In this document: positions 25,201 through 62,267 of the stretch, in pieces | Numbering within the stretch: the stretch's first letter is position 1 | How the letters are laid out: every line of letters starts with the position of its first letter | Source of the DNA: Tridacna crocea | Taxonomy: Eukaryota > Mollusca > Bivalvia > Cardiida > Cardiidae | Length of the DNA stretch: 64,000 nt | Assembly: GCA_943736015.1 (NCBI GenBank) | Contig: OX031069.1 | Span: forward strand, 22,945,235 to 23,009,234 | Reading direction: 5' to 3' | Notes under the pieces: model-generated | What the model was told of the DNA's origin: nothing | The model's database searches: none | What the model saw: the letters and a program-made list of their open reading frames with translations, nothing else | Position numbers and translations under genes: made by a program

Positions 25201-28200
25201 ATCAGCCTCCGAAAATAGATACGAAACGTCATAGCGTACAGTCTACTCGCCCATCACAAAATGATGATGGAACCAACGAAAAGCCAGCATTCGGCCAGCG
25301 GTTAACCGAGGGAAATTCAATTAATTGTCCCAGGGGTCGATGTAGCGTAGCAAATAGGGAGACCCCGGGGTATACGAGGATGCTGTATTCTAACCCTTTA
25401 CCAAACAACAAAATTTTAGACTGGTCCAAATTGAAAGCACTCGCAGACGACAAAATAAATGTAGCTCAAAAATTTATTTCATTTTTTCTAGCAGGGTAGA
25501 AAAGACTGTGGGAAAGGAAGAAAATGCTGGTTACCAGCATTTTCTCCTTTTCCCACAATGTTTTCAAAAGATTCTCCTGAGGGTCGTTAAAAGTCAGGAT
25601 TGTGTAATAATGTGTTGACAGCCTGGTGTGGGGGGGGGGGGGAGAGTATGGAAGGCTTTGGAAAACATCCGAAAAGGAGAAAATGCTGATGACCATCAAT
25701 CTTTGCTCAAGTATGCTCAAATACGCTCAAGCATGCATTTTCACACAACAATTTTACGTGTAAATGAAACTAAAAACAGGAAATTCTTCCTACACGGGCA
25801 AAAGAATGTGGTAGAATAAAAGTTTTGCAAAGCAGCGCATATATTCCAAAAGGGACTTGTCAGTGAAATGGGTTAGAACACCTGCAGAGATCCAAATTTT
25901 AAGAGTCAAATGCACGACTACACTACACATTGTGGTAAGTTTCAAATTATTCCAATGGAAACTGTAGAAGGAGTTGCACAAACAAGAAATTGCTAAAAGA
26001 TGAACGAACAGACAGAGATGGACAGACAGCCAAGGCCATAGAATAATATGACCCTTCAAGAATATGAAAAGTTAAAAATGCTGGTTACCAGTCTTGAGGG
26101 TTGTTAGGTAGAGACTGTGTCAAAAAAGCTGAACCCTTAGGCTGCTAAGAGCGACTTACTGATCTTTTGTGGATATTGCAGATTAAAATCAGACTGCACA
26201 GAATATGTAGTCCATTCTTTAATCTACACTCTCCGATACGGGACATAACTGTCCCCCTAAAAGTGCCTTTGAAAAAGCAAAATGATAATTTGCCTTATTT
26301 AGCAGGTTAATTCCTGGTTGGCAAAAATGCTTTCAATTTGGACAAGTCTTACACTGCCATTTGGTACAGAGATTCAGAACTGCTGGAGTCTGGTCTACAG
26401 GAAGATGTCATCATGATCTAGGGATCAATGCAAGACTAGAAACAAAAAGCACTTCAGATGAATTTCCTTTGGAAAGACTTCAAAGTCTTCTAGAAGAAAT
26501 GTGTTAATATGGCTTGCAACACACCAAAAGGGCCATTCTGGCATTTGTATAAAGTGCCATCTTGGATCAGCCTGCTCAATCTACGTAGGCTAATCTGGAA
26601 TGGCACTTTACAACTACATTAGATTTTGGACTACAGTAGACTTTCCCAGAATGAAAATTACATAAATCGGAAAGTGTCATTTTGAATTAGCTCACCCAGA
26701 CTACAAAGGCTGGTCTGAGACAAGAGTTAGACTGTATATGAAGGTCCAAACGTCCCATTTCACATGTTGCAGGCCATACTTAATCCGATCTATCGATGAC
26801 ACTGACAAGCATAAGCAGGACAGGGTCAAACACAACAAATATCCTAGCAATTAAAATCTAAAACTTTCAATCAAGGTTAGCATGTTTTGAATCAACTTGA
26901 AATATTGTTTTGGGGAAAAGTTTAAATCTGATTCAGGTATGGTACCTTCTTGAATCATCTCACAGAAACAACTCTAATTTGCACCAATAGCAAAGATCTG
27001 AGTAAAGAATTTTCAGCCTCTTTTATTAGGATCTCAGTCATTTTTTGATAGCTGGCTAACTGCAGGTTTTACCTGAAAAACTGAGCAACTCTTGCAGTAA
27101 AGGCATCTCTTGCATCATTCACGTTACCGATACATACATCACCAATTTCATCTGGTCTGACATTATTTCTTTTAAATAATCCTTCAAAAGCAATTGCTAA
27201 CAAATCGTCACCATGTGTTTCCTGAAAAAAGGGTAAAAGTATTGTGCACATGATTAAATTAAATTTCAAAAGAGTAGCTTTTAACCTTAACCTTTTGCCT
27301 TGTGTGAACGTGTACTGATTTTTTTGTCTGCAGCTAAAACTTGCTTCCTTCTTTAAAATGAAGTTGTACCTTACATTGTAAATTCTACATGGCTTGCAAC
27401 ACTTTGATTTTAGCATAAAGCGTCATCTTGGATAAGCCTGTACGCACAGGATGATCCGAGAAGGCACTGTTCCAGTACATCAGATTTCGATCCAACAGCA
27501 GACTTGCACAAAACCCTTTTCAAAACAATCTTGAGTTTTAACTCTTTACAACACAAACAAACTAAAGACTAGTCCAATAGAAAGCAACTGCAGACAAAAG
27601 TTTAAATGTAGCTTACATGATGAAGTTGTCTATAATAGGGTAGAAAACATTGTGGAAAAAGGAGAAAATGCTGGTTACCAGCATTTTCTCCTTTTCCTAC
27701 ATAGTTTTCAAAAGGTTTCTTCCTCAGACTTATCAAAACTTTAAATTGTGTGGTATAGGGTTAAAAGACCGTAATTAAAAGCGAATGCTTTTGAGATAAT
27801 TGTTTCAAAAGGAAAAGATGATGGTTATCCCGACTTATAACGTCCCTGAATAATATTTTTAAAAAAAATTAGAAAGATGTAGATAAAAGGAAAAAAATGC
27901 TGTTAATCAACATTTATTCCTTTCACCACAATGTTCACTGCCTTATCAACGACAGAAATCGTCCTTTGGGACATTGTATTTGTTATCTACAAATGATTTC
28001 AATTTCGTCCAAAATTTCATGATAAAGAGTACCTTCAGTCTGAAGGTGTCTTCTCCGATGCTAATTTTGTAACTGTTCTTCGCATACACCTTCAGGCCAA
28101 CCTTCATTAAATACGTCTGGGTTTTACCCGCATCTTTTTGAACGGTTCTATACATCATAATTTCCAATGACAGCTTATAAAATGGGCATGGATCGTTAGA

Positions 28201-29126: not shown

Positions 29127-29990
29127 CTTCTGAAGAAAATATGCAGAAATAGGATTAGAGTTGTATTTTGCTGTCCCTTAATTTCGAATATTCTATATCC
29201 AAAAAATAAAACATCTAATTTTCTTCAAGTGACACTCTCTACTCAGGCCGATAAACGATGTCAAATACTAGAACGATAGAAGGTTCAATATTTCATGAAC
29301 CGGATGTTTACTACTTTGCAAGCTGGTTCCCCTATTAATTTCACAAACGGCCGACTCTCTTAAAATAAACAAAAAGGACATTTTATTGAAGAAATTAATT
29401 AAGTGTAGCGCATAGGGCTTAATTAGATGTAGGCCACAAACCTTAAATTTATCAACTGACAACTTAGAGACTACTTGTTTATTTTCAACACATATCTGTA
29501 CAAAGAGCTTTGGATCAACCTTAAACAAAACCAACGTCACGTGACTGACGTCATCAATGACGTTATCATGATGGAGTAGCGTAAGTCGTATCGTTTTGTA
29601 GTCTTTTTGGAGCAAAATTACCTTCATAAATAATTAAAACAAGCTACATATGATTAATGCTATCTTAGTAGTTTCAGGGCTTTTGATTGTCAGTTTTTTA
29701 ATCAATACATAACCGTCAGCAATGTAAATCAGGTAGCAAATGTGAGACAATGCACCAAGTTGAATATGTGCGGCTGTTGATCAGCAAAATATTTTCTCCT
29801 GTTATTTTCATCTTAACCAAGACAGAGACCGAATGAAATATCGAAGCAACTTCTGGAATATTGGTGATTTTTGGGACTTCAATTACTTCTTTTAATTGCT
29901 TTTATTTAATAATTAATTCGCTCTCAATTTACAGCCATTGGAAAGGAGATGACAAATGAAGGGATGGAATAAGCCCAATGCAGATCTACA
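29127..29990. promoter_or_regulatory. Head-to-head intergenic region, candidate bidirectional promoter
   Basis: This 864-bp gap separates the start codons of the thiolase (-) and the receptor-like gene (+). It is free of recognisable hairpin MITEs, unlike its surroundings. It holds CACGTG (29538-29543), a full CRE TGACGTCA (29546-29553) and a half site TGACGT (29558-29563) within 26 bp. These sites are seen; promoter activity in both directions is inferred. Confidence 0.5.
29949..29972 (+). other. Short upstream ORF
   Basis: ATG to TAA, seven codons, 18 bp ahead of the chosen start of the receptor-like gene. A second out-of-frame ATG lies at 29979. Translation control is possible only if the mRNA begins upstream of it. 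Confidence 0.35.
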
Positions 29991-32900
29991 ATGAGAACTT
30001 TTTTCAATTCATTGGTGTTCCTTACATTTACTGTGTGGAAGACTGATGCCAAAGAGGCATGTCCTCCAACCTGCAATCCACCTCCAGATATCACAGGGTG
30101 CACAGCATATATTTCTTCAGATAGCTGTGCAGGATTAAAACGGTAAAAATTGTTTATGAAGGTGTTTTACATTTAGAATTTTTGTTATGTAGGAACTATA
30201 GTTATAGTAATACAAAATAAAGCTGTTTCATGGAAACAATTGCAATAACCTTAATAATTTTACCACATCATCAGGATTCTTATTCTAATGCTGCTTTCAT
30301 AAATGAAATGAAACTCTTAACCCATTACCACACAATCCCTAATTTTGATGATGCTGAGAAAGAAGGCTTTAGAAAACATTGTGGGAAAAGGAGAAAATGC
30401 TGGTTACCAGCAATTTCTCCTTTTCCCACAATGCTTTCTACTCTTCACGAAACACATTTCAAATTTTTAGTCACTTTTATTTTGTCGTCTGCAAATGCTT
30501 CAGATTTGGACAAGCCTAAAATATTGTCGTTTGGTAAAGAGTTAAACCAAAGTAAAAACCAGATCGAATTATGCTATTTCACACAATTTTTTTTGAGAAA
30601 ATATGTCTTTTTATCTGTGCTGAACGTGCAGTCTGATCACAGATCTATACTGTCTGATAAAGGTCAGGAGTCCTGCTTAGCAGCCTAAGGATTAATGACC
30701 CTGAAAAAGGTGTTTGAAAACAAGGTGGGAAAAATAGAAAATACCAGTAACTCGCGTTTTCTCGTTTTCCCAAGATGTTTTTTCACTTTTTGATGGGAGA
30801 AATCTAAAATTTTTAGTTACAGTTAGCTTTTCATCTGCAGATGCTTTCAATTTTCAAGAATTCATAAAAGGTTGTAAAAAGTTGATGATATTTATGTTGC
30901 AATGATTCTTTTTTTTTCATAATTTGAACTGAAAAATGTGTACTAAAGAAACCTGATTCTTGTATTTGAAGTTGTGATAATGGGTTACATGTAGTTAAGA
31001 CACCATGGAAAAAATGCTGTGATTTACAACAAGAAAAAAAATAAGAAAAATTTATCAATTGCTAAAGATATTCACTTTTTCATCTCTCACAGGGACATGA
31101 AGACTTCTTTAGCAGAATGTGGCTGTCTGTGGAAAAACTACATCCAAAGCCTTGTGGAGCCAGACAGAAACATTATTTTTACAAACTACGGCATTCAGTG
31201 TTATGTTTGGGCAATGACAGTATGTGGTTAGTAAAAGCTATTTTATGTCTATGAATGGGAATTTAATCCAAGGCTGCTAAGCGTGAATCAATTGCCTTTT
31301 GCAGACAATGTAGATCAAGATCAGACTGCACAGAATGTGCAGTCTGATCTTTGATCTACATTGTTTAATAAGGAGATATCTTTCCCTGAGAAATACCTTT
31401 GAAACGGCAGAATTTGGGGTCTTACTGTCAGCTTGAAAGTTGCATGTTACTTATTAATAGCAGGATAAGGATAAATGCACATCTATACGTCTTAAACCTT
31501 TACTCCATAGATACTCATTTCTACGCATTGCTTGTAGGAGCCTTTGGAAAACATTGTGGCAAAAGGTGAAATTGCTCGTGACGAGCAATTTCACCATTTG
31601 TCACAATTGTTTTCTATGCTATCAAAAGGTGTCATAAACGCATTAGAAAGGGCTTCACCCTTGCTGTTATTTAGGGTCAATTAGAGATACTTATTTGCAT
31701 AGCACAAGCTATGAGTAAAAGAAGGTAAGAAAGTGTCATCTCTTCAAATGAGCAATTCTACAGTTTTGGGCATCGCAGAGGCTTGAATTTGATTGTATTT
31801 GCGTTTATTTTTTGTCGCCCCATGTGGGCGACAACCCCTGAAGGCTGTTAGTATTGTTACGGGTGATAGTGCAGATACAAGAGGAAACCCATCTTAAGTT
31901 AGGCCTGGGTCTTTTATGTGCTCGGTATATAGCACCGTCACATGAGACTTTGGAAAACACTGTGGGAAAAGCAGAAATTGCTCGTTACAAGCAATTTCTC
32001 CTTTTCCCATAGTGTTTTCAAAAGACTTTTACTGCAGACACGTAAAATTCAGGGCTTGTTTGGGAAAGGATTAAAGTATGATAACATTTCATGTTGGCTG
32101 AATATATTTGCATACTATGGGTCAGCTAAGGGGAGGCAATAGCTTGGGGTGGAAGTGGGGGGTCACAACAATATAATGCTAAGAGATTTTTACCCTTTAC
32201 AAGTAAAAAGAGCGCAGGGTCATAATCTTACAACTAGCCCTTGGGATGATTGAGGTATCTCAGCAATTTATGTCGCATGTCTATAAAATTCATCTCGTAC
32301 TCATCACCGGAAGTAAAGCAATCAATTTTATACTTTGGACTTGTATTCTTAGTCATACTGTAAAAAGTCAGAAAGAAACACAAACTCTGATTGTCTATTA
32401 ACCCTTTACCAAATAATCCCTGGTTTTTACGACCCTGAGATAGAAACCTTCTGAAAACATTGTGGGAAAAGGAGAAAATGCTGGTAACCAGCATTTTCTC
32501 CTTTTCCCACAATGTTTTCTACCACAGGAATTTGACATTCTATAACCAAAATAAAAATGATAAAATATAAAAAAAAAAACCTCCCTATATAATATAAACA
32601 CTGTGTTTATATTATATTGGGGAGATTTTTTTTTCATAGTTTATCATTTATTATAGTTATAGAATGTCAAATTTCTGTGTTTCTACCCTGCTGTTATCAT
32701 ATTTCAATTTTTGAGTTACGTTTATTTTGTCGTCTGCAAGTGCTTTCAATCTGGACCAGTCTAAAATCTTGTCGTTGAGAAAAGCGTTAAAACATTTTGT
32801 TAAGATATAGTCTGAACTGAGTTACTTCTAGAAAGTTTTTCAAATGACTAGTAAATATGGCCAGTGGTCAGTAGCATCCTTATAAAGACATTGATTTGGA

Positions 32901-35900
32901 TTTTTTTTTTCTCATTTTGCTTTTAAAACATGGAACTGTGAAGTAAATGGTTAACATGCAAAATTATAACGTGACTTTTTTTGATTTTCAGCTGTTCATG
33001 TGGAAACAACAACAACGACAACAACAAGTAAACCACCAGCTTTAGAAGTGGACTACGAGACTGGTGATTTATTTGGTAAACTTGATGGAGGTAATGCTTT
33101 CTGTTCAATTATATCACAGGAATTTGTCATTCTATAATGAAAATATATGATTAAATGTGAAGAAAAACTACTCCCCTATATTAAGAGCCATGCTCTGGGA
33201 AAAAGGGACTTAATGCATTTGCAAAAAGTATCAAATTCAGGTCATTCTGCGCAGTCCATGCAGGTTGACCTGGGCCAAAACTTTTTTGCTAGTGGTAAAT
33301 TCTCTGCATGCCCAAGGACCAGCCTACCCCAGGATTGAATCAGTTGTTGAAAAAGGTGGCAATCATGGGGGGGGAAGGCAATGATGGGGGGGGGGGGGGG
33401 GAACGCACTCGTCTTAATATATGATACTTTGATTTCCGGATTTCAGTGGATGTAAGCTGTTTACAAGAAAAGTCAACGTTTCCAGTTCTAACCATGAGGA
33501 GGTCTCCACATTTAGAACCTTTCTTTTTTTTATTTTTGACTGTATTTTACATAAATGCTGTGCAATATCAAACCAGTACCATTTCAAACCATCCGATAAC
33601 CACATTTCTGCCAAAATTCCAGGGGGGGTCCGGAACCCCGGTCCCCCCCTCTGGATCCGCCCATGCCTATTTATGTGATGACTTGCTTGGTACTATGGAT
33701 CAGGGAAATGCACTTAGCCCCCTTTTGCGAGAGCCTGGCACATATAAAGAAACATAAGTATTTTTTTATATATAGGTATTTTGTTTCATATTTAATCATA
33801 TGTGACTTGTCATGCAAAAAGGGTCCTTCATCTTCGCGAGCCAAGGTTACGATCATTACGTTGATCTTACCTTGGCTGATTGAGCCTAATTTCGAGATTC
33901 CTGCGATGTGCCCTCTATTGGATGCTGGTTATTACCCCCCTTTACATCATAGTTCTGAAAGCCAATGAAGTATCATTTTATAAACCGCTTACTAATACAA
34001 TAATTCAACATGAAGGGATAAGCAGAAATCCATGTCGGTTTCCATGTTTACCCTCTATTTGAACGGTCACAACCTTATTCTATTTTTATCAAAGATGAAA
34101 TGCTTCGAGAGATTCCATTCGTTGCAGCTGGAGTTGGCTGCATCTGATGAAAAAGTGTATCAGGGGAATTTAAAAATCAAGCTCGATCCGCCAAGGGTAG
34201 AGTAGCGTAGTGAATCGTCAGCCTTGGCTTGCGAAGATGAGGGACCTTCTGCTAGACATTCATTTATATTTTGCAGATAAAGGAAAGTTCAAGTCTGTAG
34301 AAAGAGTTACTTCAAAGATTTTTTCTGAAAAGGATTTAAAGCGTCTTGAAGGTATGCTGTTGGACACGTATTACTCTTAACTCCTTTTCACACAATCCCG
34401 ACTTTTGATGACCCTGAGAAAGATGCGTTTTGAAATTATTGCAGGAAAAGGAGAAAATGCTGGTAACCAGTATTTTCTCCTTTTCCCACTACGTTTTCTA
34501 CCCTATCAAAGCAAAATTGTATCACTTGAGACACTTTGAAATTGTCATCTGCAAATGCTTTCAATCTGGACAGGTCTAAAATTTTGCTGTGCGGTAACAG
34601 TTCAAATGAACAACAAAATTTTAGACTTGTCCTCATTGAAGGCATTTTCTGATGGCAAAGCTATATTGTATAGGATTTGACTATGCAAGGGTCTCTAAAT
34701 TTGAGGTAAGGAAGAAAATGCTGGTTTAACCATTTCCCAAAAGGCAAATTTTAGACTCTTCCAAACTCAAAGAGTTTGCAGACGACAATTTCAAATTTGA
34801 TGAAAATGGCAGAAAGTTCTCCAAATGGGTAGAAAACATTGTGGGAAAAGGAGAAATTGCTCGTTACGAGCAATTTCTCCTTTTCCCACAGTGTTTTCAA
34901 AAGACTTGTACTGCAGACACGTAAATCAAGGGCTCTTTTGGGAAAGGGTTAATAGAATTTTTTGCAGTTGCTATGTTTACAAAAGCTTTCTCCTTCAGGG
35001 TTGTATAACACCAGACTATTTTGTAAGGGCTATAACTATTCTGTGTGAGCCAAGTCAGCATTTTAAAACTGTTTGTATGTATAATGAGCTGCCAAACCCC
35101 AGTAGCAAAGTCTGTAGCATACAGTACTCTAGGTCAGGGGGTCGCTTCTTAAAATCCCTAGCTCAGTAGATTTCTACACCAGTACTCGCGCCGAATGTGT
35201 GGGCCAATGAAAAATCCCAAAGTTGACACCCGCTCCTGGGTATCGAACTTGGGACCTTTAGGTTATGAGGCCGACGCTGTACCTCATGACCACAGTAGAA
35301 TCGAGAGAGATTAGTATAAGTTGTAAGAACTTGTTTCTCAACTTGTTTCTCAATCGATGAAAAATAAATATGTTTAAACCAAGCATATTTCTTTTAAAGG
35401 ATTGATGATAGTCATTTCTACGAGATTCATATCTCTCTCACCATAATTTTGAAAATGGTGATCTGGAAAAGCAGCCAGCAGCATGAGAAGAAATTGTGAA
35501 AAACTAGTAAAAAGAAACACATGAAAGCATGGGTAGGTACACTGGCTGCCATGCGATAACTGAAATGATGTGAAAACTGTGCTAAACACCATAAGAAGAA
35601 TCAATCAGTTGTCTATCGAGCCTGACAATTTTTTAGGAGAAACCATTGAGATATTGTCACAGCCCTATTATCAGCTGACTGGTTACCATGCAAAAACTGA
35701 GACGTCTTCTCTCTCATTACAGGATCATCTTTACTTTAAACTTGAGCTCAACCCTTTAATACCACAAAACAAAATTGTAGACTTTTCCAAATTGAAAGCA
35801 TTTGCAGATGACAATCTAAATGTGGTTAAAATGATGGAATTTGTTATTGATAGGGTAGAAAACATTGTTGGAAAAGGAGAAAATGCTGGTAACCAGCATT

Positions 35901-38900
35901 TTCTCCTTTTCAGGAGAAAATGCTGGTAACCAGCATTTTCTCCTTTTCCCACAATGTTTTCCAAAGCCCCCCCAAATAATTTTGAAAATCATACTAGTAA
36001 CTAAAATATGAGTTTTTAGTGCAATGCAACAACCTAAAATCTCAGTATTTCGAAGTTAGCCCCCCCTCATTACATGTCTGATATGTTTTGTTTACCTCTT
36101 TTTTTTCAGAGAAAGGTGTTGTAATAAAGGTATGTAATTCACATTTGAACCATGTGATGACAAAAGGGGACTTAGCCCTTTACCACACAGCAAAATTTTA
36201 GACCAATCCAAATTGAAAGCATTTGAAGACAACAATTTCAAACTGGCTCAAATGAAGACATTTGTCTTTGATAGGGTAGAAAACATTGTGGGAAAAGGAG
36301 AGAATGCTCGTTACCAGCATTTCCTCCTTTTCCCACAATGTTTTCAAAAGCCTTCTTTGATAGGGCCGTAAAAACCCAGGTATTGTTTGGTAAAGGGTTA
36401 GTTAATGCTCCTTGGACAAAAAGAAGACTGACAGCAAAAACGTTCAAGCCCAAAGCAGCAAAAAAAAACTGAATCTTGAAGCTGGTTCTTCTAATTCAGA
36501 AAAATTTACCATTAGCATAAGGTTTTGACTCATATCAGCCTGCATGGACTGTGCCACAGGCTAACCTTACCTTTTTGCAAACGTATTAAATGCTATTTTC
36601 ACAGAGTACAGCTCATGTGTACTGAAAAGTATAATTATGGTAAAAAAAAAAGTCAAATGAAATAAAATGGAGAAAATGTTGGCTGAAAAGAGACTGTATG
36701 GGCCGTGCCTGTTACTTGACTGGACGCTGGTGACATGCTATCAGCTATGTTGTTGAGGATGGGTCCCAGTGACGAGCAAGGGCGCAAGTCCTAGAGGAGT
36801 CAAACTGCTTGCCTTGCTAATCTGTGGAGACATGCTTCTGGGCATGTCAGTATCTGTGACATCATTAGACTTGGGAGACATGCATCTTTGCAAGCCAAGG
36901 GTTACAATCCACTATGCTACTCTACCCTTGGCAGATTGAGCTTGATTTCGACAATCACCAGATACGCATTTTCATTGGTTGCAGCTAGCTCTAACTGCAT
37001 CAAATCAAATCGCTTGTAGCATTTCATCCTCGGATAAAAATAGAACAGGGTCACAATAAAAATAGAAGGTAAACATGAATACCTCTGTGGATGTGTGTAG
37101 GATCTGTAATGATTTATTACCAAAGAAAACATCTATATACGAACAATATATACATAAAGTTTCAATTTGACCAATAAATTATCAGATGTCTTAGGCTATT
37201 TCCCAGCACCTGACCATGGAATGTCGAAGTATGTTTGCGGTTATCGCTTCATGTTGAATTATTGTATTCATAAGCGGTTTGTAAAACGACATGTCATTGG
37301 CTATAAGAAATATGATATAGAGGGAGATAACAAGCAGCAGATGACAAAATAAATGTGAATCAGAAAATAAAATTTGATTTGGAAAGGGTAGAAAACATTG
37401 TGGAAAAAGGAGAAAATGCTGGTTACCAGCATTTTCTCCTTTTCTCACAATGTTTTCAAAAGCTTTCTGTCTCAGGATTGTTAAAAGTGGGGATTGTATG
37501 GTAAAGAGTTCATCTGTATTCAGCAAACACTTTAGATATAGACCAGTCTAAAATTTTGCTATGTGGTAAAGAATTAATAGTTATATAATTTTTTGAATAA
37601 GTCATTCCACCATCAAGGATCTTATCTTTTTGTCCAGAGAAAGAGCCATTGGTCATCTTGGAATATCCATGACGATCAATTCAAGTTGGCCGTGTTTGGT
37701 TTTATACTTTTGTTCAATGTTGCATGTGTTGCAATAGCAGTATGCTGTAGGGTAAGTATCAATGATAGATTTGAATCTAAGCTCAAGTATACTACTCAAC
37801 ATTTGCTAGGGATCAATTCGATACTTCAATACAGGAATATGTTACATAAATACCGTTTTGCTTAAGAAATATTCATTATCTTAGATAGTTTATATCATCA
37901 GTGTGGCAATGTTATGTACTGAAAAACCATACCAAATGCATGCCACGCATACATATTGGCTCAATATAAGATGGTGATCCCTAGCAAATGTTGAGTAGTA
38001 TACATACCAGATATACCACTTATGACAAATTTTTTGTCATAGGCCATATTGATTTATTGACTGTATTATGTTTAACCCTTTAAGCGCTGGAACCGACTTA
38101 ACTTGCTTTTGTGGACAGTGTAGATCAAGATCAGACTGCACAGAATGTGGAGTCTGATCTTAGATCTACACTGTCCACTATTTTGTTACATATTGTGGCA
38201 AAGAAAAAACTTAATACAGTAATATATCAGATGATTTTCCTATTTAAAAATGTCTCTTTGTCTTAATTCAGCACTTTAACTCTTTACCACACAATCCCGA
38301 CTTTTAACAACCCTGAGAAAGAAGCCTTTTGAAAACACTGTGGGAAAAAGAGAAAATGCTGGAAACCAGCATTTTCTCCTTTTCCCACAGTGTTTTCTGC
38401 CCTTCCCAAACCAAATTTTAATTTTTCAGTCACCTTTATTTTGTGGTCTGTAAATGCTTTCAATTTGGACCAACCTAAAATTTTCTTTTGTGATAAAGAG
38501 TTAAGGGTTAATGCTGCTATCAACATTATTTCAGTTATATCAAAGCAGCCAGTGCACCTATCCATGCTTTCCTTGAGTTTCTTTTACCAGTACTCTACAC
38601 TACATTCTCCCAAGCCACTGGCAGCTTACCATTATAACTATCATTGAAACAATAGTCAACGGTTAGAGAGGAATTTATCCTGTCGCAATGACTGACATCA
38701 CTCTGAGAATTGGAATTGGCTGAGCCATATGGATGGGAGGATAATTGTATGTAAGTTGGCGCAAGTTAGCAGTTGAGATACTAGTAATATCTTATAAACC
38801 TTTCCAATACATTCATATGGGAAAATGAAGAAAATGCTGGCTATCAGCATTTTCTCCTTTTCTATCAATGTTTTCTACTCTGTCATTATCAAATCTACTT

Positions 38901-41900
38901 GTTTTAGCCACACTTAATTTCTTGCCTGAAATTGCTTTCAATTTGGACAAGTCTAAAATTTTGTCATGTGGTAAAGGGTTTAACAAGTCTAGAAAAATGG
39001 CATTAAGCATGCCTCTGGTGAGCTTTTCAACATTTTCATAGACAAGTTTGATAAAATTTTATCTCAAATGCTAATAAATGTCAAATCCTTCTTATTATAT
39101 AATGAAAAATAGGTCAGATACAAAACTAAGAAGCACATGTGGTAATTTCTTACTAAATCTAAGGGGTATGTTGCACCGAAAAAAGTGGTTATTATGTGTA
39201 AAAGACTAGATCTAAAAGCCCCCCCACCCCCCAAAAAAAGTAAAGAAAAATAGGTAATTTTCACCATTTATAACTCAAAAAATATAATGGATAACCCATC
39301 ACAGCCACATATATATGATCTGAGAAAATGAGAATGTTTCAGTTTCTGTATTGGTTGCCATGATATGCATGTGCGAAAATGCATGGAGAAACTGTCAATT
39401 TCAGGGATACCATTGATTGAGACAACCTTCGTTATTGTATGTGTGTATTCGAACTAGGTCTTCGGGAATGTCATGTGATAGCATTGCATCTCATTAGTGC
39501 TATGGCGTAGTACACAGGGTTCAGGACTATTGTTTGCACTTCCAATATCATGCCATCGGAGAGTAAGATTGCTGATTCTGAACCTGTTTTCTTACTTAAT
39601 GTAGTAAAACTTCCTGTATTGATGATGAACAAATAAGTGACAATCAGCCTGTGTCGTCATTTCTGTTTACTGTATGTGTCAATAAACTTAGTTTTTCAAG
39701 ACTAGCATGGGGACAAAACTATCAAGTGAATGTAAGTTTTGTTTCAACGCGTTGAATTACTACATGATGTTTACATCACTATTATTTCACTGCAGAGATT
39801 TACAACGAAAAATCGGCTAATCAGCGGCAATTATCGATGTAAACAAACGAATAATGCAACATGATAGGATTTGTCTTAGTTTCAAAATTCTTTTTCCTGC
39901 CATTGACTGACTCTTATGAACTGCGCCTTTACATATTGTTAAAGTCGTATTAATGTTCTCTACCCATCTAGAACCAATTCAATTTTTCAGTCACATTTAT
40001 TTCTTCGTCTGCAAATGCTTTCAATTTGAACCAGTCTAAAATTTTGTCATTTCATAAAGGGTGAAACAACAAAATTTTCAACTTGCCCGATTTTAAAGCA
40101 TTTTCAAACAACAATTTAAATGTAATATTGAAATGACTAGATTTATCTATGAAAGGGTGGAAAAAGCTGGGAAAAGAAGGAAATACTTTTTACCTACATT
40201 TTTCCTTTTCCCACATAGTTTTCAAAAGGCTTTGAGTCAATAAACACAAGGAAAGAGTTAAAATCCTTTTCTCCAGTACACACTGTTGAATCTGGTCATT
40301 ATGTCTTAGTACCGGTAAAAGTTTCAATATCACTGATTTATGCTTTTAGGATTAACCGTTATGAAAAAGATATGAATAGCTATATGTGATTTATTATTCA
40401 GTGTGATACAAGAACTAAAGAGAAAGAGCAACACATGGCTGGTGACTTGGAGGACAACAAATATCCAGACAGACCAGCAAGGATTATAAATTTTGAGTAA
40501 ATCATTTCTGAAGCCATACAGTCCCTCCTGCCAAATTACCCCTTTTCAAACAACATATTTTAGACTCTTTAATTCAAATTGAAAGCAATATGGCAGATAA
40601 TAACGTTAAGATTGGTGCAAATGAACTGAGTTTCTCTGATATGGTAGAAAACATTGTGGAAATGGTTTCGATGGGCTCAATCCTTTTAACTCTTTACCAC
40701 ACAATCCCTACTATTAACGCCCCTGAGAAAGAAGCCTTTTGAAAACACTATGGGAAAAGGAGAAAATGCTGGTAACCAGCATTTTCTCCTTTTCCCACAG
40801 TGTTTTCTACCCTTCCCAGAACAAATTTCTATTTTTGAATCACCTTTATTTTGTTGTCTGCAAATGCTTTCAATTTGGAGCAGTCTAAAATTTTCTCGTG
40901 TGGTAAAGAGTTAACTCTTTACCACACAATCCCTACTTTTATCGACCCTGAGAAAGAAAACTATAAAAAAAACATTTTGGGAAAAGGAGAAAATGCTGGT
41001 AACCAGAGCATTTCCAGATGATATATTAGATATATCTGAAAGGATGCTAATTGTCAATGAAAGTGTCGAAAACCTTGTGGGAAAAGGAGAAAATGCTGGT
41101 AACCAGCATTTTCTCCTTTTTCCGCAAGGTTTTCAAAAGGCTCCATCCTCAGGGTTGTTAAGACCGGGGATTGTTTGGTAAAGGGTTTAGAAATAGATTG
41201 GATTCCAGAGAAACTTCTGAGTGGGAAAAGGGACATAAGTGTGTCAAAACATTTTGATAATTACCTACCCCAGTTGGATAGGCGCTCTTTTTAACTCTCT
41301 ACCAAAAGCCCAAATTGAAAGCATTTGCAAATGACAAGATAGATGTCAATAAAAAAATGAATTTTGATTTTGGAAGGGCAGAAAATATTGTGGGAAAAGG
41401 AGAAATGCTGGTTACCAGCATTTTCTATGTTTTCCCACAATGTTTTCAAAAGGTTTCCTTCCCAGGGTCGTTGAAAGTAGGGATTTTGTGGTAAAGAGTT
41501 AAAAACTAGTTTGGGTTTGAAGTGAATATCTTTGGTAATGAGTGAGTTATGTCAAGTTAGTGCATGGCAAATTCTAGGTTAAAAAAAAAAAAGGGCATAA
41601 CTGCATCAAAATATTTTGATATTTACCTGCCATTGTTGTATGGGTTACCCTTTTAATAATTAACGGCTAGTCCAAATCTGAAGTTTGAAAACATTGTGGG
41701 AAAAGGAGAAAATGCTGGTAACCAGCATTTTCTCCTTTTTCCATAATGTTTTCTACCCTTCTGGAAACAAAATTCAGTTTTTGAGTGAACATTTATTTTG
41801 TCTTCTACAAATGTTTTCAATTTGGACCAGTCTAAAATTATAAGGTTTGGTACAAAGAGTATACCTCTTCTTATTTTGCACTTGATAAAGCCAGCTTTTG

Positions 41901-44900
41901 TATGGCATCCTAGGAAACTGAGCATGTGCTGTATTCATTCTTTCTGACTAATCATGATGAGTACGCTGTGCCACTCGTGAAAATATTACCGATGGTGTCC
42001 ACTCGACGAAATAAATTTCGATCTTTCATCGAAAAAAAACAACTATCCTCTATTTATCTGTGACAGAGTAGGAAACACTGTTGGAAATGGAGGAGACACT
42101 GTTTAACAATTTCATTTGTTTTAATCATTTATTTGACTTACAGTTGGAAAAAAATTCACAGAATCACCAGTTCTTATTGTGTATGCCTTTTTCCCAACTT
42201 GTTTGCTAGGAAATTCTTGGAAAAGTTACGACTCCATAAGGCACGAAAAAGGGAGGAACAAGAGAACTCTTATGCCATCTTGGGAATGCAGAGCATTGGA
42301 CCCATTGACAAACGTCAGGTTGGTAATAACTCGTATGTGTAGTACAACCTTTTACCCAAGTGGCAAAAGGAGAAATGGCTAGTTAACACTTTACCACAAA
42401 ATTCTGACTGGTATCATCCATAAGGAAAAACCTTTTGAAAATTTTGTGGTAAATGAAGAAAATGTTGGTAACCAGCATTTTCTCCTTTCCCACAATGTTT
42501 TTTTACAATTATGCAGGATAATATCATCTTTTGAACCAAATCATTTTGTCGTCTACAAACGCTTTGAGTTTGGACTAGTGTAAAATTTTGTCCTGCAGTA
42601 AAGAGTCAAAATAATTTTAAACATTAATGTATCAACAAGAATTCTCTTTTATATGTATAGCAGACGATCATTAATCAAGTTCATTTAATAAGATTTAACC
42701 CTTTCCCCTACAACAAAACTTTGTTCTTGTCCAGACTGAAAGTATTTGCAGGCAACAAAATTATTGTGACTCAAAGTTTAAAACATTATGGTAAAAGGGG
42801 CCAGAGCCTGCACTTTCTCTTTTGCCCTCATTGTTTTAAAAATCTTCTCCTTTCAAGTTTTCAAAAGTCAGGATTGCATCATAGAGGGTTAAGACACTGA
42901 CAGGATGAAGAATCAAAGCAGTAGTTTCCTAAAACACTTTGCTTTACCTGTTATCAAACAATCCCGTCTTTTAATGACTCTGAGGAAGAAGGATTTTGAA
43001 AACATTGTGGAAAAAGGAGAAAATGCTGGTGACCAGCAATTTCTCCATTTTCCACAATAATTTTTTTTTTTCAAATACAGAAATAATTTTTTGAGCAACA
43101 TTAAATTTGTCATCTTCAAATGCTTTTAATTTGGAGAGATCTCAAAGTTTGTTGCATGGAAAAGGGTTGATAGGTGAGTTAGTCTCAATAATGAGACACT
43201 AGGGTTTTTTTTTTTATACATGAACATTTATTGTGCACAGCACCGTCTCAAGTCCATCGAAAATTTTCCTTTAGCAAAGGTAGTGTGCTACACTGCCTTT
43301 TTGTTTTGTCAGTTTAATCTGTATTGCAGCGAAATGCAACTGAATTTAAGTAACTCGACTAACATGACCAAAGACAAATTATTAAACCTTTTGTCACCTT
43401 AAAAGCTAGTAGAAATCATGTATGACATGTAAATCTCTGAAAGAACACTGACAAAATTTATTGTGTGTGGCGGCCATTTTGACTGTTTTCGAGAATGTAA
43501 ACAACTCAAGTAACAGATAAAACTTACGGTTTTCTCTTATTGTCAGAATTTAAACATATTTGTATTTCAAACGAAGGATTTTTAACCCATTACCACACAA
43601 TCCCTACTTTTGACGCCCCTGAGAAAGAAGTCTTTTGAAAACACTGTGGGAAAAGGAGAAAATGCTGGTAACCAGCATTTTCTCCTTTTTCCACAGTGTT
43701 TTCTACCCTTCCCAGAACAAATTTCAATCTTTCAGTCACCTTTACTTTGTCGTCTGCAAATGCTTTCAATTTGGACCAGTCTAATATTTTCTTGTGTGGT
43801 AAAGAGTTAAATACACAAGCAACAGGTATGTTTAAATCCTAGTTTTGTGCTCTATTTGTGAAAATATGAGAGTTCAAACTTGCGCACAGAATCTCTGTGG
43901 AACTTTCAATTGGTTTTTTCTTGATCATCTTTGTACCAGAGGTGACCAATAAAAAAGTAATATCACCTATTGGGACAATTATCTGTACTAATACATGTAC
44001 ATGAGTAAACTTTGAGGAAAAAGGCACTATTGCTCATTAGGAAGAATTTCTACTCGAGTCTCAAACTTTCAAAGATTGTCTGCTGACATGTGGAGAAGGG
44101 AATGAAAGTAAAACAGCACAACTTACATACATAAAATGTTCTAGCTTTCTTATTATACCCAGCAGAAGTTATACTCCACAAGGCTGTCGTGTCCACAGTA
44201 TGACAGTGCTGATGAGCAGTCGGATCTTCTAGATACTTCATATGAGGAACCTCTACCATTAGCCAGGGAGGTGCATCCAAAACATGCAAGGTAACATGTA
44301 CCCTACTTCCATACATGTTATTTTTTATGCTTGCAGGCTTCCCTTGATGTAACATTAGGTATAACCATAAGCATATGTCAAACCCTTCACTTTTATTTTG
44401 GAAGTGTAGAAAACATTGTAGAGAGAAAAGAAATACTGTTCACCAGTAATTTCTTACATCCACAATGGTTTCAACATGTAGAATGTATATTTCTATATTT
44501 GGGTAGCATGGTCATGTCTAACTTGACATTTTTGTTTTGGACTGTCCATCCTCTGGCAAAGGGGGGCTTAAGGTAGTGGACCCATAATAAAAAGCAGCTA
44601 TTTCCAGTATAATATCATCCTAAAAAATTGCTATGATTAAAAATAAGAATTATTGTACTACTTTTTTCCAGCCACTTTTTCCTTTTTTTCTTTCTAAGAA
44701 TTATTCTTTATAAATCTAAAACAACTATATTCTCATTACAAATGAAAAATATAATTACCTCCCTTTTCTGGAAACTTACAAAAATATCAACAATAATTTC
44801 AAGATAGACATCAAAGAAATTTCTGGTCTGTTAAGAATATGCAAAAAGTATGATATTTGTATAAATTCATATTTATCAGCTATCAAACAAAAATCATTCC

Positions 44901-47332
44901 ATGTTGCACCAGAAGTATTACGGGTCTACTTCCTTAATGTATCTCTCTGATTCACATACGTACATGTAGTAGGTCATCATAATAATTATAGACCCATAAA
45001 AATCCAATTTGTGTTACAACAGACTGAATCTTAAGGTATGCTGGTCTGTTGACTTGAAGAATTATTGACCAATAGCGAAAAGTTTCACCCAAGGTCAGCC
45101 TGCACAGTCCAGATGCATTAAGCCCCCTTTTCAAAGAGCATGGTTTATTTAGATTCTTAAACAACTGTAGTGTGCATAGTTCAGTTAACTTGTGTTTTGT
45201 GCTACATGAAGAATGAATAAACTTTTTGTTGCCATTTGATATTCATTACTGCATTAATGCTCAACAAGGACGATTCGGGTCATGCTGGATTTGATAATTC
45301 TCTGAACAGTTTTGAGGATGCACGGACATTTGCTGTCCAGTCAAATGTTGACTTTAATTTAACCCTTTACCACACAATCCCTACTTTTAACACCCCTGTG
45401 AAAGAAGCCTTTTGAAAACATTGTTGGAAAAGGAGAAAATGTTGGTAACCAGCATTTTCTCGTTTTCCCACAATGTTTTCTACCCTTCATAAAACAAATT
45501 TCAAATTTTCAGTCATTTTTATTGCCTTGTGCAAATGCTTTTGATTTGGACAAATCTAGAATTATATCATTTGGTAATGAGATAACAAGAAGGGATTTTT
45601 CAACACCTAGGTTGAAATCTTAATATTTAGGAAGCCAGCCATTTGTTTTTCTATACCAGTGAATTGTTTGGTGATGATGACTAGAAGGCAGGAAAGATAT
45701 TTAAGACTGAATTAAAAAAGACAAAAATATTGCATATGTGGAATTCTATGTAAAGAGTATGGATGATTGACTATTGTAATGCTTTACCAAACTTCACATT
45801 TTTTATCCGGTTTAAATGGAAGGCAATTGCAGACGAAAATTTAAGTATTGCACAAATAATGAGATTTGTCTCTGATTGACTGAAAATATTGTGACAAATG
45901 GAGAAAATACTGGTTATCAGCATTTTCTCCTTTATATCATAGTATTTTAGCAAGCAGTTTGCACAGGGTCATTAGCACATTGTTGGTAAAAGTTAAACTG
46001 GTTTCTATAATTGTAGAAAGAGCAGCATGTCAGATGAAGACACGCTTTACGAAAATGTACAGCCTAAAAACAGATCTGTATCATTCAAGGCACCACAAGG
46101 CTTATCGGCAGATCAGACGGAGAGAGTAGGTACTAAATATTGAGTTTTGCCAATCAATAGTGACATAAGTATAATTATCTAAGATGTATTCTCTAACCCC
46201 TGTGCTAGACAACAAAATTTTAACCCTTTACCACACGAAAAAATTTCAGATTTATCCAAATCGAAAGCATTTGCAGATGACAATTTCATAGTGGCTCAAA
46301 TGATGTAATTTTTCTTTGATAGGATGGAAAACTTTGTGGGAAAAGGAGAAAGTGCTGATTATCAGCATTTTCTCCTTTTCCCACAATGTTGTCAACAGGC
46401 TTCTCTCTAAAGGTCATTTTTTAAAAGGCATCATTGTGTTGTAAAGGGTTGACCATATTTAACACTTTACCACACAAGAAAATTTTAGACTGGTCCAAAT
46501 TGAAAACATTTGCAGGCGACAAACTAAATGTGTCTGAAAAATTAAAATTTGGTTAGAAAAGGGTAGAAAACACTGTGGGAAAAGTAGAAAATTTTTCTGT
46601 GGTTACCAGCATTTTTCCTTTTCCACAGTGTTTTCAAAAGGCTTCTTTCTCAGGGTCGTTAAAAGTCAGGATTGTGTATTAAAGAGTCGAAGATTAACCC
46701 TGTACCAATTTATTCCATAAATGAGCAAGTTGCTCATGTAAAAATAGACCGTGTTTCCCATTGGCGTCGACCTGGGCTGTAGTAAATCTCTAATTTCTTT
46801 TGTTTTCGGATGGTTTTCAACCACTTGGGTTTTATGAATGAAAATTATAAGGCTTTGGGAGTATAAAGATTATTTTTTTGTATTTTTGTAAAATTTTTGG
46901 CCCAAAATTTGAAGGGCCACCTTTAAGAGGGGGTGGGTAACAGGATTTTTAACGACCTGCTAAATGAAGACTTTTAAAAAAGTTTAGGAATAGAAGAAAA
47001 ATGCTGGCAACCAGCATTTCCTCTTTTTCTAGCAATGTATTCTACCCAAACAAGGCCAGAAGTCATCCTTCTGATGTTACAGCAGCTTTCAAGTCTAAAC
47101 TTTTGTTGTGTGGTTAAGAATTAATTTACACTTAATTATAGGCACTCTTGGTTTTAGCTGTTATCACACACTTGTATCACAAGTCATGTGACCAGGTTTT
47201 GGCCATCAATTATACATGTCTGTGGACAATATCATTCTGTAATGACAAGTACATGTATTCCTTTTTCAGATACCAAAGAAAAGTAGCAAGAACGATATGA
47301 AGTTTTTACCAACAGTGAAATGGACAAGATAA
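29991..47332 (+). CDS. Unrecognised type I membrane protein, receptor-like, 11 exons, 365 aa
   Basis: Exons: 29991-30142, 31093-31226, 32992-33090, 34277-34351, 36110-36129, 37638-37751, 40402-40496, 42210-42318, 44163-44290, 46017-46125, 47270-47332. Phases close to 1098 bases. Residues 1-20 form a signal peptide. The ectodomain has eight cysteines (24, 28, 37, 46, 60, 62, 87, 95) and a seven-Thr run (101-107). The span is about 177-197 (LAVFGFILLFNVACVAIAV), followed by cysteines 196, 197 and 199 (possible palmitoylation). The 168-aa tail has Tyr219, 251, 270, 279, 293 and 320. Y251 is in NSYAIL (YxxL). Y320 is in TLYENV, which fits TxYxx(V/I) (ITSM) and YxN (Grb2 SH2). I know no family with this layout; a signalling receptor is inference. 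Confidence 0.8.
30317..30545 (+). repeat. TTAA hairpin MITE
   Basis: Intron 1 of the receptor-like gene. TTAACCCATTACCACACAAT to GGTAAAGAGTTAA, with one stem mismatch (CAGCAATTTCTCC). A degraded relative follows at about 30700-30890. Confidence 0.85.
31308..31367. repeat. Palindrome, GATCAGACTGCACA type
   Basis: GATCAGACTGCACAGAATGT folds on GTGCAGTCTGATC, with AATGTAGATCAA / TTGATCTACATT outside. Copies or fragments occur at 38107-38163, 26165, 30630, 57320 and 61140. Confidence 0.8.
31496..31650 (+). repeat. TTAA hairpin MITE, GGTGAAATTGCTC subtype
   Basis: The stem is GGTGAAATTGCTCGTGACG with right arm CGAGCAATTTCACC. Both arms carry the same departure from the usual GGAGAAA / TTTCTCC. 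Confidence 0.65.
31930..32073 (+). repeat. TTAA hairpin MITE, ATTGCTC subtype, partial
   Basis: The stem GAAATTGCTCGTTACAAGCA matches 12960-13181. The left end is absent and the right end is GGGAAAGGATTAA. Confidence 0.6.
32398..32790 (+). repeat. TTAA hairpin MITE carrying an inserted element
   Basis: The host parts 32398-32522 and 32680-32790 join into a normal copy. The 157-bp insert is described separately. Confidence 0.85.
32523..32679. mobile_element. 157-bp foldback MITE with 7-bp target duplication
   Basis: Inverted ends CACAGGAATTTGACATTC and GAATGTCAAATTTCTGTG continue as an almost complete palindrome around AAACACTGTGTTT. TTTCTAC is duplicated on both sides (32516-32522, 32680-32686); 8 bp (TTTCTACC) is possible if the first C belongs to the target. 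An end of the same element recurs at 33115-33160. Confidence 0.85.
33190..33340 (+). repeat. CAGCCTGC-type dispersed repeat
   Basis: GCTCTGGGAAAAAGGGACTTAATGCATTTGC, TCAGGTCATTCTGCGCAG and TTGACCTGGGCC identify a diverged copy of the family seen cleanly at 57005-57190. Confidence 0.5.
33386..33401 (+). repeat. Poly-G tract
   Basis: Sixteen consecutive G, next to two shorter G runs, in intron 3 of the receptor-like gene. Confidence 0.9.
33821..34247. mobile_element. ~427-bp long-TIR element (CATCTTCGCAAGCC family)
   Basis: The ends TTCATCTTCGCGAGCCAAGG and CCTTGGCTTGCGAAGATGAG are inverted repeats. Similarity continues inward through CCTTGGCTGATTGAGCCTAA against its reversed counterpart. Related copies occur at 36875-37330 and at the right edge (63763-64000). 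Confidence 0.75.
34377..34603 (+). repeat. TTAA hairpin MITE
   Basis: Starts 26 bp past the exon 4 donor of the receptor-like gene. It has an intact hairpin and right end GCGGTAACAGTTCAA. A further end fragment follows at 34612-34660. Confidence 0.75.
34726..34952 (-). repeat. TTAA hairpin MITE, ATTGCTC subtype, perfect stem
   Basis: GAGAAATTGCTCGTTACGAG gives a perfect inner palindrome. The left end TTAACCATTTCCCAAAAG and right end GGGAAAGGGTTAA differ from the main subfamily. Confidence 0.8.
35205..35292 (-). mobile_element. tRNA-like SINE head, reversed
   Basis: On - it has a B-box-like AAGTTCGATACCC preceded by an A-box-like segment (GTACAGCGTCGG). It stands next to the short dispersed repeat at 35290-35375. 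Confidence 0.45.
35290..35375 (+). repeat. Short dispersed repeat (second copy)
   Basis: Same sequence as 4099-4163, with ACTTGTTTCTCA tandemly duplicated. Confidence 0.6.
35385..35590 (+). mobile_element. SINE body
   Basis: Carries AAAGCAGCCAGCAGC, CATGAAAGCATGGGTAGG and the tail GATAACTGAAATGATG shared with the other SINE copies. The ORFs on either strand are SINE sequence. Confidence 0.6.
35749..35968 (-). repeat. TTAA hairpin MITE with doubled hairpin
   Basis: The whole inner palindrome (GGAGAAAATGCTGG and its complement) occurs twice in tandem before the stem closes with CCCACAATG. The right end is replaced by unrelated sequence. Confidence 0.75.
36110..36129 (+). CDS. 20-nt microexon of the receptor-like gene
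   Basis: Acceptor TTTTTTTCAG, coding AG-AAA-GGT-GTT-GTA-ATA-AAG, donor GTATGT. It bridges phase 1 of exon 4 to phase 0 of exon 6 and adds EKGVVIK just before the membrane span. Without it the frame breaks. Confidence 0.65.
36173..36400 (-). repeat. TTAA hairpin MITE
   Basis: TTAGCCCTTTACCACACAGC to GGTAAAGGGTTAG. The hairpin has a single loop-side change (GCTCGTTACC). Confidence 0.8.
36480..36606 (+). repeat. CAGCCTGC-type dispersed repeat
   Basis: AAAATTTACCATTAGCA, TCATATCAGCCTGCATGG and TATTTTCACAGAG keep the family order with a diverged second arm. Confidence 0.55.
36875..37330. mobile_element. Diverged CATCTTCGCAAGCC-family element
   Basis: The left part (GCATCTTTGCAAGCCAAGG, CTACTCTACCCTTGGCAGAT) and the later GTTATCGCTTCATGTTGAA / GGTTTGTAAAACGACATG match the copies at 33821 and 63763. 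Confidence 0.6.
37346..37510 (-). repeat. TTAA hairpin MITE, left end replaced
   Basis: The hairpin and the right side (TATGGTAAAGAGTT) are intact. The left side begins mid-element at AATAAATGTGA. Confidence 0.7.
37787..38003. mobile_element. 217-bp element with 29-bp perfect inverted ends
   Basis: 37787-37815 and 37975-38003 are exact reverse complements (GTATACTACTCAACATTTGC...). TA dinucleotides at the tips would suit a Tc1/mariner-type target. It starts 36 bp after the exon encoding the membrane span. Confidence 0.75.
38107..38163. repeat. Palindrome, GATCAGACTGCACA type
   Basis: Second clean copy of the element at 31308-31367, with a GTGTAGATC / GATCTACAC outer stem. Confidence 0.75.
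38277..38504 (+). repeat. TTAA hairpin MITE
   Basis: Near-consensus. The stem has the paired variant CACTGTGGG / CCCACAGTG and the loop is GCTGGAAACCAGC. Confidence 0.9.
38525..38740 (-). mobile_element. SINE, reversed
   Basis: TTTCAGTTATATCAAAGCAG, AAGCCACTGGCAGC and TTGGCTGAGCC are the reversed tail, body and head junction of the SINE. Confidence 0.6.
38800..38983 (+). repeat. TTAA hairpin MITE, left-truncated
   Basis: Hairpin with core GCTGGCTATCAGC and right end GGTAAAGGGTTTAA. Confidence 0.6.
39000..39950. other. Intron 6 sequence without recognised features
   Basis: No exon, hairpin or inverted repeat that I can support; only short homopolymers (C and A runs near 39220). Confidence 0.4.
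39958..40262. repeat. Two partial TTAA hairpin MITEs
   Basis: A + right half (39958-40062, lacking the hairpin) is followed by a - copy (40063-40262) with a shortened stem. Confidence 0.55.
40686..40914 (+). repeat. TTAA hairpin MITE
   Basis: Near-consensus, TTAACTCTTTACCACACAAT to GGTAAAGAGTTAA. The last TTAA is shared with the next element. Confidence 0.9.
40911..41190. repeat. TTAA hairpin MITE, hybrid of two left ends
   Basis: It opens with a + left end and one stem arm, is cut at ACCAGAGC, then continues with a - copy whose stem base is CCTTGTGGG / CCGCAAGG, changed on both arms together. Confidence 0.65.
41289..41502 (-). repeat. TTAA hairpin MITE
   Basis: TTAACTCTCTACC to GGTAAAGAGTTAA. 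The right arm is altered to TTTTCTATGTTTTCCC. Confidence 0.75.
41648..41862 (+). repeat. TTAA hairpin MITE
   Basis: Hairpin intact. The left end is replaced by TTTTAATAATTAACGGC; right end GTTTGGTACAAAGAGTA. Confidence 0.65.
41960..42029 (+). repeat. Half copy of the 14723-14863 palindrome
   Basis: GTGCCACTCGTGAAAATATT, ACCGATGGTGTCCA and GATCTTTCATCGAAAAAAA match one arm in order. Confidence 0.7.
42381..42609 (+). repeat. TTAA hairpin MITE, diverged
   Basis: GTTAACACTTTACCACAAAA to CAGTAAAGAGTCAA, 63 bp beyond exon 8 of the receptor-like gene. Confidence 0.65.
42696..43170. repeat. Two TTAA hairpin MITEs
   Basis: 42696-42893 is a - copy with a decayed hairpin (AAAGGGGCCAGAGCC). 42946-43170 is + with a good stem and core GCTGGTGACCAGC. 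Confidence 0.65.
43582..43810 (+). repeat. TTAA hairpin MITE
   Basis: Near-consensus, TTAACCCATTACCACACAAT to GGTAAAGAGTTAA, with the CACTGTGGG / CCACAGTG stem variant. Confidence 0.9.
44330..44567 (-). repeat. TTAA hairpin MITE, degenerate
   Basis: Stem ACATTGTAGAGAG ... CATCCACAATGG with a weak core (GTTCACCAGTAATTTC). Its right end was the target of the element at 44568. Confidence 0.45.
44568..44937. mobile_element. TTAA-flanked TIR element, second family
   Basis: TTAAGGTAGTGGACCC at the left faces GGGTCTACTTCCTTAA at the right: 22-bp inverted ends with three mismatches, bounded by TTAA. The AT-rich interior has no ORF. Confidence 0.65.
45050..45150 (+). repeat. CAGCCTGC-type dispersed repeat
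   Basis: AAAAGTTTCACCCAAGGTCAG, CCTGCACAGTCC and ATGCATTAAGCCCCCTTTTC are diagnostic; one arm is deleted. Confidence 0.55.
45359..45585 (+). repeat. TTAA hairpin MITE
   Basis: TTAACCCTTTACCACACAAT to GGTAATGAGATAA. Hairpin complete with two mismatches (ATGTTGG, CTCGTTTTCC). Confidence 0.85.
45779..45996 (-). repeat. TTAA hairpin MITE near a splice acceptor
   Basis: Diverged copy ending GGTAAAAGTTAA only 20 bp before exon 10 of the receptor-like gene. Confidence 0.6.
46219..46690 (-). repeat. Two TTAA hairpin MITEs in tandem orientation
   Basis: 46219-46451 has core GCTGATTATCAGC. 46458-46690 has CACTGTGGG / CCACAGTG and a disrupted loop (TTTTTCTGTGGTTACC). Confidence 0.75.
46700..46925. 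repeat. Dispersed repeat shared with 15390-15792
   Basis: GACCTGGGCTGTAGTAAATC, TTTTATGAATGAAAATTATA and GAAGGGCCACC match the first copy closely in the same orientation. Confidence 0.7.
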
Positions 47333-47348
47333 TAGCAATTCTGAGCTG

Positions 47349-47548
47349 TTTAACTCATAACCAAACAACAAAGTTTTAGGTTTGTCCCAATCGAAAGCAT
47401 TTGCAGGCAACAGAATAAAAGTGACTGAAAATTTAAGATTTGTTTTGTTGAGGGTTGAAAACCAGCATTTTCTCCTTTTCCCACAATGTTTTCCAATGGC
47501 TTCTTTCTCAGGGTCGTCAAAAGTAGGGATTGTATGGTAATGGGCTAA
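47349..47548 (-). repeat. TTAA hairpin MITE in the 3' UTR, left arm lost
   Basis: Starts 16 bp after the receptor-like gene's stop codon. The left hairpin arm is deleted (GGGTTGAAAACCAGCATTTT). It contains AATAAA at 47414-47419. Confidence 0.75.
47414..47419 (+). promoter_or_regulatory. Candidate poly(A) signal supplied by a MITE
   Basis: AATAAA, 82 nt past the stop codon, within the ACAAAATAAAAGTGA part of a - oriented MITE. It is the first such hexamer after the stop. Confidence 0.45.
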
Positions 47549-47705
47549 AGCTTGACCACACAATCCTAGGTTTGAACTAATTCACTAAAAGGGCTTTCGA
47601 AAAAAAATTGTATGAAATGGAGTAAAAGCTGATAAACAGCAATTTTTCCTTTTGTCAAAATGTTTACCATACTTTTTAAGACAAAATCCTTTTATTGAGC
47701 AACAT

Positions 47706-51180: not shown

Positions 51181-51319
51181 GGTGTGTTAAACCCTCGCTG
51201 AAAGCACAAAAGAAAACGAAATCAGCAGGTCTGCATTACAGGCGCTCGTGCAATCTTTATTCACTGATACTACCACACAAAATTAACATTCGAGTGTTCA
51301 ATAATTGGATAAATGCGTC

Positions 51320-61770: not shown

Positions 61771-61910
61771 GATAAATAGTATTTCATTTATATCACGGGA
61801 ACAGGTCGAGTATTTGTGTCTCTTTTTCACCCGTGCTGGGACTTTTAAGTACTTTGCCAAAGAGCACTTTAATCGATTACAAAGCACTATACAGAAATTT
61901 GATATTTTCA

Positions 61911-62265: not shown

Positions 62266-62267
62266 AG

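Follow-up and report, generated by a model that had tools for sequence, protein, structure and literature searches.

A candidate receptor-like membrane protein with an eight-cysteine ectodomain and a tyrosine-containing tail in the giant clam Tridacna crocea

Tyrosine motifs of the ITIM and ITSM type are well described in PD-1, where two motifs that lie 25 residues apart are both reported to be used in SHP2 binding and where SHP2 is described as binding best via the ITIM and the ITSM together (PMC8631942). The range of partners that a single motif may recruit is illustrated by CD244, as the phosphorylated ITSM peptide is reported to bind SAP, EAT-2, SHIP-1, SHIP-2, SHP-1 and SHP-2 from lysates of human NK cells, and the same pull-down also yielded CSK, GRB2 and PLC-gamma1 (PMC3958483). 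Among invertebrates, FcoR of Botryllus and Alr of Hydractinia are presented as receptors or candidate allorecognition genes with ITIM or related tyrosine motifs (PMC12065747), and BbLcLRR of amphioxus is reported as a membrane receptor with tyrosine motifs (PMC8211107). Among the titles and abstracts listed by our searches of open-licence papers, we found no description from a mollusc of a protein like the one presented here. It is encoded within a stretch of 64,000 nucleotides from the genome of Tridacna crocea (the window), and we tentatively favour, at a little under even chances, the interpretation that it is a type I surface protein with a tail that serves as a docking site for SH2 domains and with a residence at the surface that is tuned by sorting signals.

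The sequence-only reading had proposed 11 exons on the + strand (29991-47332) with exactly closing phases, and this model could be rebuilt from the window without change. The exons sum to 1098 nt, corresponding to 365 codons plus TAA, with AG/GT at every internal boundary of the ten introns, phases that close, and a stop codon that ends at 47332. As these exons had been picked by eye in about 17 kb, we wrote an unsupervised exon-chain gene-finder, which was run over 29200-47600 with order-4 Markov simulations as the null. The codon model was derived from 12,513 codons in 29 of 30 open frames that encode GPCRs in this genome (L032 was omitted for an internal stop); for splice sites and amino-acid frequencies, generic untrained values were used.

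At an intron cost of 8, the best chain on the + strand scored 43.2 bits, as against 12.6 on the - strand and a maximum of 29.0 in 100 simulations (mean 14.8, sd 4.5). At costs of 9 and 10, the best chains scored 31.7 and 25.6 bits, with simulated maxima of 22.5 and 18.5, so that all 100 simulations were surpassed at each of the three costs. As a positive control, almost all of the adjoining thiolase gene was found, with a score of 109 bits. When the minimal exon size was set to just a few bases, exons 1-6 and 8-10 were picked exactly; with a minimum of 18 bases the same exons were picked, but exon 10 ran on to a stop at 46143. Fewer exons were retained at higher intron costs, and at a cost of 12 the best chain (18.7) was devoid of exons 1, 2, 4, 6 and 8, the full 11-exon model scoring -2.0.

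A chance string of open pieces, with no gene at all, is the reading to which the moderate codon bias might point: synonymous codon use is midway between the background and the GPCR genes (z +2.3 from the former, ~2.2 sd below the expectation for the latter), and the full model at a cost of 10 scores 18.0, which is about the simulated maximum of 18.5. It is nevertheless extremely improbable, given the superiority of the best chain over every simulation at costs 8, 9 and 10 and over the other strand, and it fits poorly with the behaviour of the two halves of the gene, each of which exceeded 200 of 200 simulations when analyzed separately. The ectodomain half (29200-38000) gave 26.1 bits (null maximum 20.1), with a chain consisting of exons 2-6 and one piece overlapping a repeat, without exon 1, and the tail half (40300-47600) gave 17.3 bits (null maximum 15.5), with exons 8, 9 and 10 and nothing besides. 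The locus is thus, with high probability, a genuine gene that encodes a small protein of the cell surface, as had been claimed, its exon chain being recovered by an independent gene-finder far above simulations, and the structure is supported for 9 of the 11 exons (1-6 and 8-10; Table 1).

Table 1. Exons of the receptor-like gene and the features they encode (positions in the window)
Feature	Position	Strand	Content and recovery by the gene-finder
Exon 1	29991..30142	+	Start codon, putative signal peptide, Cys 1-4; exact recovery
Signal peptide (putative)	29991-30050, about residues 1-20	+	Judged by eye
Exon 2	31093..31226	+	Cys 5-8; exact recovery
Exon 3	32992..33090	+	Run of seven Thr (33006-33026) and stalk; exact recovery; coding score 11.3 bits
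Exon 4	34277..34351	+	Stalk; exact at intron cost 8, missed at costs 9, 10 and 12
Exon 5	36110..36129	+	Stalk, 20 nt; exact recovery
Exon 6	37638..37751	+	Membrane span (about 37686-37742), Cys 196 and 197 at its inner edge; exact recovery at intron cost 8; codon score -2.5 bits, i.e. below zero
Exon 7	40402..40496	+	Membrane-proximal tail, Y219; not secured, only the start recovered
Exon 8	42210..42318	+	Tail, NSYAIL with Y251 (42265-42282); exact at intron cost 8 and also when the tail half was run alone
Exon 9	44163..44290	+	Tail, Y270, Y279, EQSDLL (44214-44231), YEEP with Y293 (44241-44252); exact recovery; coding score 12.0 bits
Exon 10	46017..46125	+	Tail, TLYENV with Y320 (46042-46059); exact with the minimal exon-size limit and in the tail-only run
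Exon 11	47270..47332	+	Last 20 residues and TAA; not secured, not picked

The two remaining exons, 7 and 11, are plausible without being secured. Exon 7 is included because the frame between exons 6 and 8 requires a bridge, and this in-frame connection of the membrane span to the tail is the weakest link of the model. Its donor (GA|gtaaat) is weak at -3.5 bits, and it ranks second of 33 among the single-exon bridges that pass loose splice thresholds, while exon 11 ranks fourth of 67 possible last exons; an AATAAA is found at 47414, about 80 bases past the stop of exon 11. The weak donor and the two ranks, and the other pieces that the gene-finder took in the places of both exons, are what would be expected if exons 1-6 encoded a short-tailed protein and exons 8-10 belonged to another transcript or isoform, or if a different bridge or last exon were used. 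We consider such a wrong join unlikely, as the two halves are on the same strand in compatible frames, either half is significant as a chain, and when the region is analyzed as a whole the top-scoring chain links them. Several further pieces were rejected as exons. Those chosen by the gene-finder at 35637-35888, 35914-35925 and 41018-41098 overlap a palindromic repeat and that at 41466-41490 resembles, by eye, the end of the same repeat, whereas 45269-45340 was dropped because it is not followed by a GT.

The core of this near-palindromic repeat, GAGAAAATGCTGGTAACCAGCATTTTCTC, occurs for example at 32472-32500, 35877-35905 and 43656-43684, and has 98 strand matches over the whole window with up to 3 mismatches, none being expected from shuffled sequence. 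It is thus extremely dense, is present in introns of both the receptor-like gene and its thiolase neighbour, and has the appearance of a MITE. The thiolase (13277-29126, - strand) is of the peroxisomal 3-ketoacyl-CoA type (ACAA1-like), with a start codon near 29126, and is arranged head to head with the receptor-like gene, with fewer than 900 bases between the start codons. Downstream, and tail to tail with the receptor-like gene, a 14-3-3 protein is encoded in a single open frame (50458-51186, - strand; Pfam E 3.7e-75). The window also contains an open frame of 222 codons (8581-9246, + strand), which includes hydrophobic stretches and matches nothing in Pfam at E up to 1, and a short repetitive stretch (61908-62446) in which several reading frames of either strand are open and repetitive.

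The spliced sequence has a receptor-like layout of type I, with a signal peptide judged by eye, and the individual elements agree with the sequence-only reading. The eight ectodomain cysteines (Cys 24, 28, 37, 46, 60, 62, 87 and 95) are all within 72 residues, they are followed by seven threonines in a row (residues 101-107), and there is a single hydrophobic span at about residues 177-195 (best window, Kyte-Doolittle value 2.71). About 156 residues separate the putative signal peptide from the span. The only other cysteines of the protein are at 190, 196, 197, 199 and 276, with Cys 196, 197 and 199 at the inner membrane edge, the last of these within the unsecured exon 7. We conclude from this arrangement that the product most likely crosses the membrane once, in type I orientation, with a compact eight-cysteine ectodomain that is probably disulphide-bonded and a threonine-rich stalk that is probably O-glycosylated.

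The protein had been assigned to no nameable family, and this assessment stands, as nothing above cut-off was found in Pfam and nothing in NCBIfam, a prokaryote-oriented library. Searches of Pfam gave nothing for the whole protein at E up to 10 and nothing above cut-off for its three parts; the ectodomain as a member of the Euplotes (ciliate) pheromone family (E 0.15) and the tail as HGAL (E 0.068, 13.7 bits versus a cut-off of 27) were rejected on these grounds. Among PDB sequences there was no meaningful match, the resemblance of the ectodomain to METTL6 (E 1.3-1.8) being noise. Neither the whole protein nor the ectodomain matched, above cut-off, the profile of a curated cysteine-rich ectodomain family (TNFR, Ly6, EGF, WSC and others) in this comparison of sequence profiles, in which kinship in the fold might well escape notice.

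A second copy in the species' own genome (1.05 Gb, 31 contigs) was found neither with residues 1-93 (E up to 0.001) nor with the tail (E up to 10), and judged by these two queries the gene is apparently single-copy. With the first 128 residues, 24 pattern matches in the genome_contigs collection and 4 in viral_contigs were obtained and none was confirmed, a result that says little because neither collection consists of animal genomes.

The cytoplasmic tail comprises 167 residues, not 168 as originally counted, is mostly hydrophilic, and does contain the six tyrosines (219, 251, 270, 279, 293 and 320) and both motifs that had been noted, NSYAIL at Y251 and TLYENV at Y320, with the numbering unaltered. 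Its description as an ITSM/Grb2-type tail holds in part. TLYENV (residues 318-323) fits the ITSM pattern TxYxx(V/I) and the pattern YxN together, in one copy, whereas NSYAIL, with its N at -2, qualifies as neither of the two motif types; the tail holds no ITIM at all and no further TxYxx(V/I). Three elements had escaped mention in the sequence-only reading, namely the string EQSDLL, the cysteines that border the membrane, and TSYEEP, which is found 27 residues upstream of TLYENV and differs from TxYxx(V/I) at +3. Y293 and Y320 share three flanking residues, and an equally similar pair is present in 13% of shuffled tails.

Patterns of this kind arise easily. When the tail was shuffled, TxYxx(V/I) was present in 1.7% of cases, YxN in 20% and YxxP in 34%, and so frequent a yield of motifs means that motifs alone are no proof of signalling. 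The tyrosine motif evidence is weak, and the protein may plausibly act as a receptor in signalling. Of seven classes of tyrosine motif, at least one is present in 35% of shuffled tails, as would be expected if the tail motifs were due to chance and the ectodomain did the work, in adhesion or ligand presentation and perhaps upon shedding from the stalk. The concentration of all eight ectodomain cysteines in so short a region would also fit this explanation. The combination TxYxN(V/I) at one tyrosine argues against it, as it occurred in just 0.1% of shuffles, though this pattern was singled out afterwards, and so do the tail exons, which together with exon 3 hold the best coding scores in the gene. 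On balance, we regard a function confined to the ectodomain as rather improbable but as a serious rival nonetheless.

The same tail can be read as a trafficking device. YAIL within NSYAIL fits the YxxPhi sorting signal and EQSDLL has the acidic dileucine form [DE]xxxL[LI], signals that are read by clathrin adaptors. In such a case the protein would resemble uptake or scavenger receptors and phosphotyrosine would be of minor importance. Exons 8 and 9, which encode the two strings, are well supported, yet YxxPhi occurs in 72% and [DE]xxxL[LI] in 23% of tail shuffles, so that both strings are common by chance. This is the other serious rival, possible but on the unlikely side, and it and the ectodomain-only explanation weigh more than a wrong join or the absence of a gene.

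As to potential partners, 42 SH2 matches were found in the species' own genome. From these, 30 loci were fetched, 13 were translated and two were compared with PDB sequences, one proving SHP2-like (best E 4e-35) and the other CSK-like (best E 6e-27); GRB2 as such is not among these two. Docking at the tail is possible, since the genome encodes SH2 domains including SHP2-like and CSK-like ones. The CSK-like locus (L038) is one of three SH2 loci (with L041 and L039; G000 C11:33226027-33232386) that are located within ~6.4 kb on one strand and are alike by eye, and which may represent either CSK-like genes in tandem or a single gene that carries all three of these SH2 domains.

In the SH2-docking process that we favour, the ectodomain of a protein presumed to reside at the cell surface would bind a ligand or a neighbouring cell, and a Src-family kinase would phosphorylate tail tyrosines, for which Y320 in TLYENV is the best candidate and Y251 and Y293 are others. 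The phosphorylated residues could then serve as docking sites for SH2 proteins, for example SHP2, GRB2 or CSK, while YAIL and EQSDLL might control endocytosis. A narrower version, in which the eight-cysteine ectodomain has a fold of its own, unrelated to Ig, lectin and LRR receptors, and the ITSM-like tyrosine leads to SHP2, GRB2 or CSK, must be considered doubtful. Should the tyrosines prove to be both conserved and phosphorylated, the gene would provide a simple, apparently single-copy system for tyrosine-based receptor signalling outside the vertebrates, with a kind of ectodomain that the family libraries searched here do not contain; otherwise it is one among many uncharacterised membrane proteins.

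Transmembrane adaptors such as LAT, PAG, LAX and NTAL are reminiscent of this protein in having cysteines at the inner membrane edge (juxtamembrane palmitoylation cysteines in the LAT/PAG/LAX type), several tail tyrosines and a YxN. Adaptors of this type have almost no ectodomain, in contrast to the approximately 156 outside residues found here. The likeness to HGAL consists of the sub-threshold Pfam match of the tail only. Among the invertebrate receptors, FcoR is described as carrying Ig and sushi domains and as a family of 53 loci (PMC12065747), whereas neither domain was matched and no second copy was found for the Tridacna gene; BbLcLRR is described with LRR and WSC domains, also unmatched here, and its ITSM-like string is in the predicted ectodomain (PMC8211107), not in the tail as in Tridacna. 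SLAM family receptors and PD-1 have an Ig-type ectodomain, and no Ig domain was matched here in Pfam with either the whole protein or the ectodomain; also, the single ITSM-like site without an ITIM is unlike the ITIM and ITSM pair of PD-1. What the Tridacna protein has in common with these ITSM/ITIM receptors is the type I layout and a TxYxx(V/I) site in the tail, and SH2 domains resembling those of their partners, SHP2-like and CSK-like, are encoded in the Tridacna crocea genome too.
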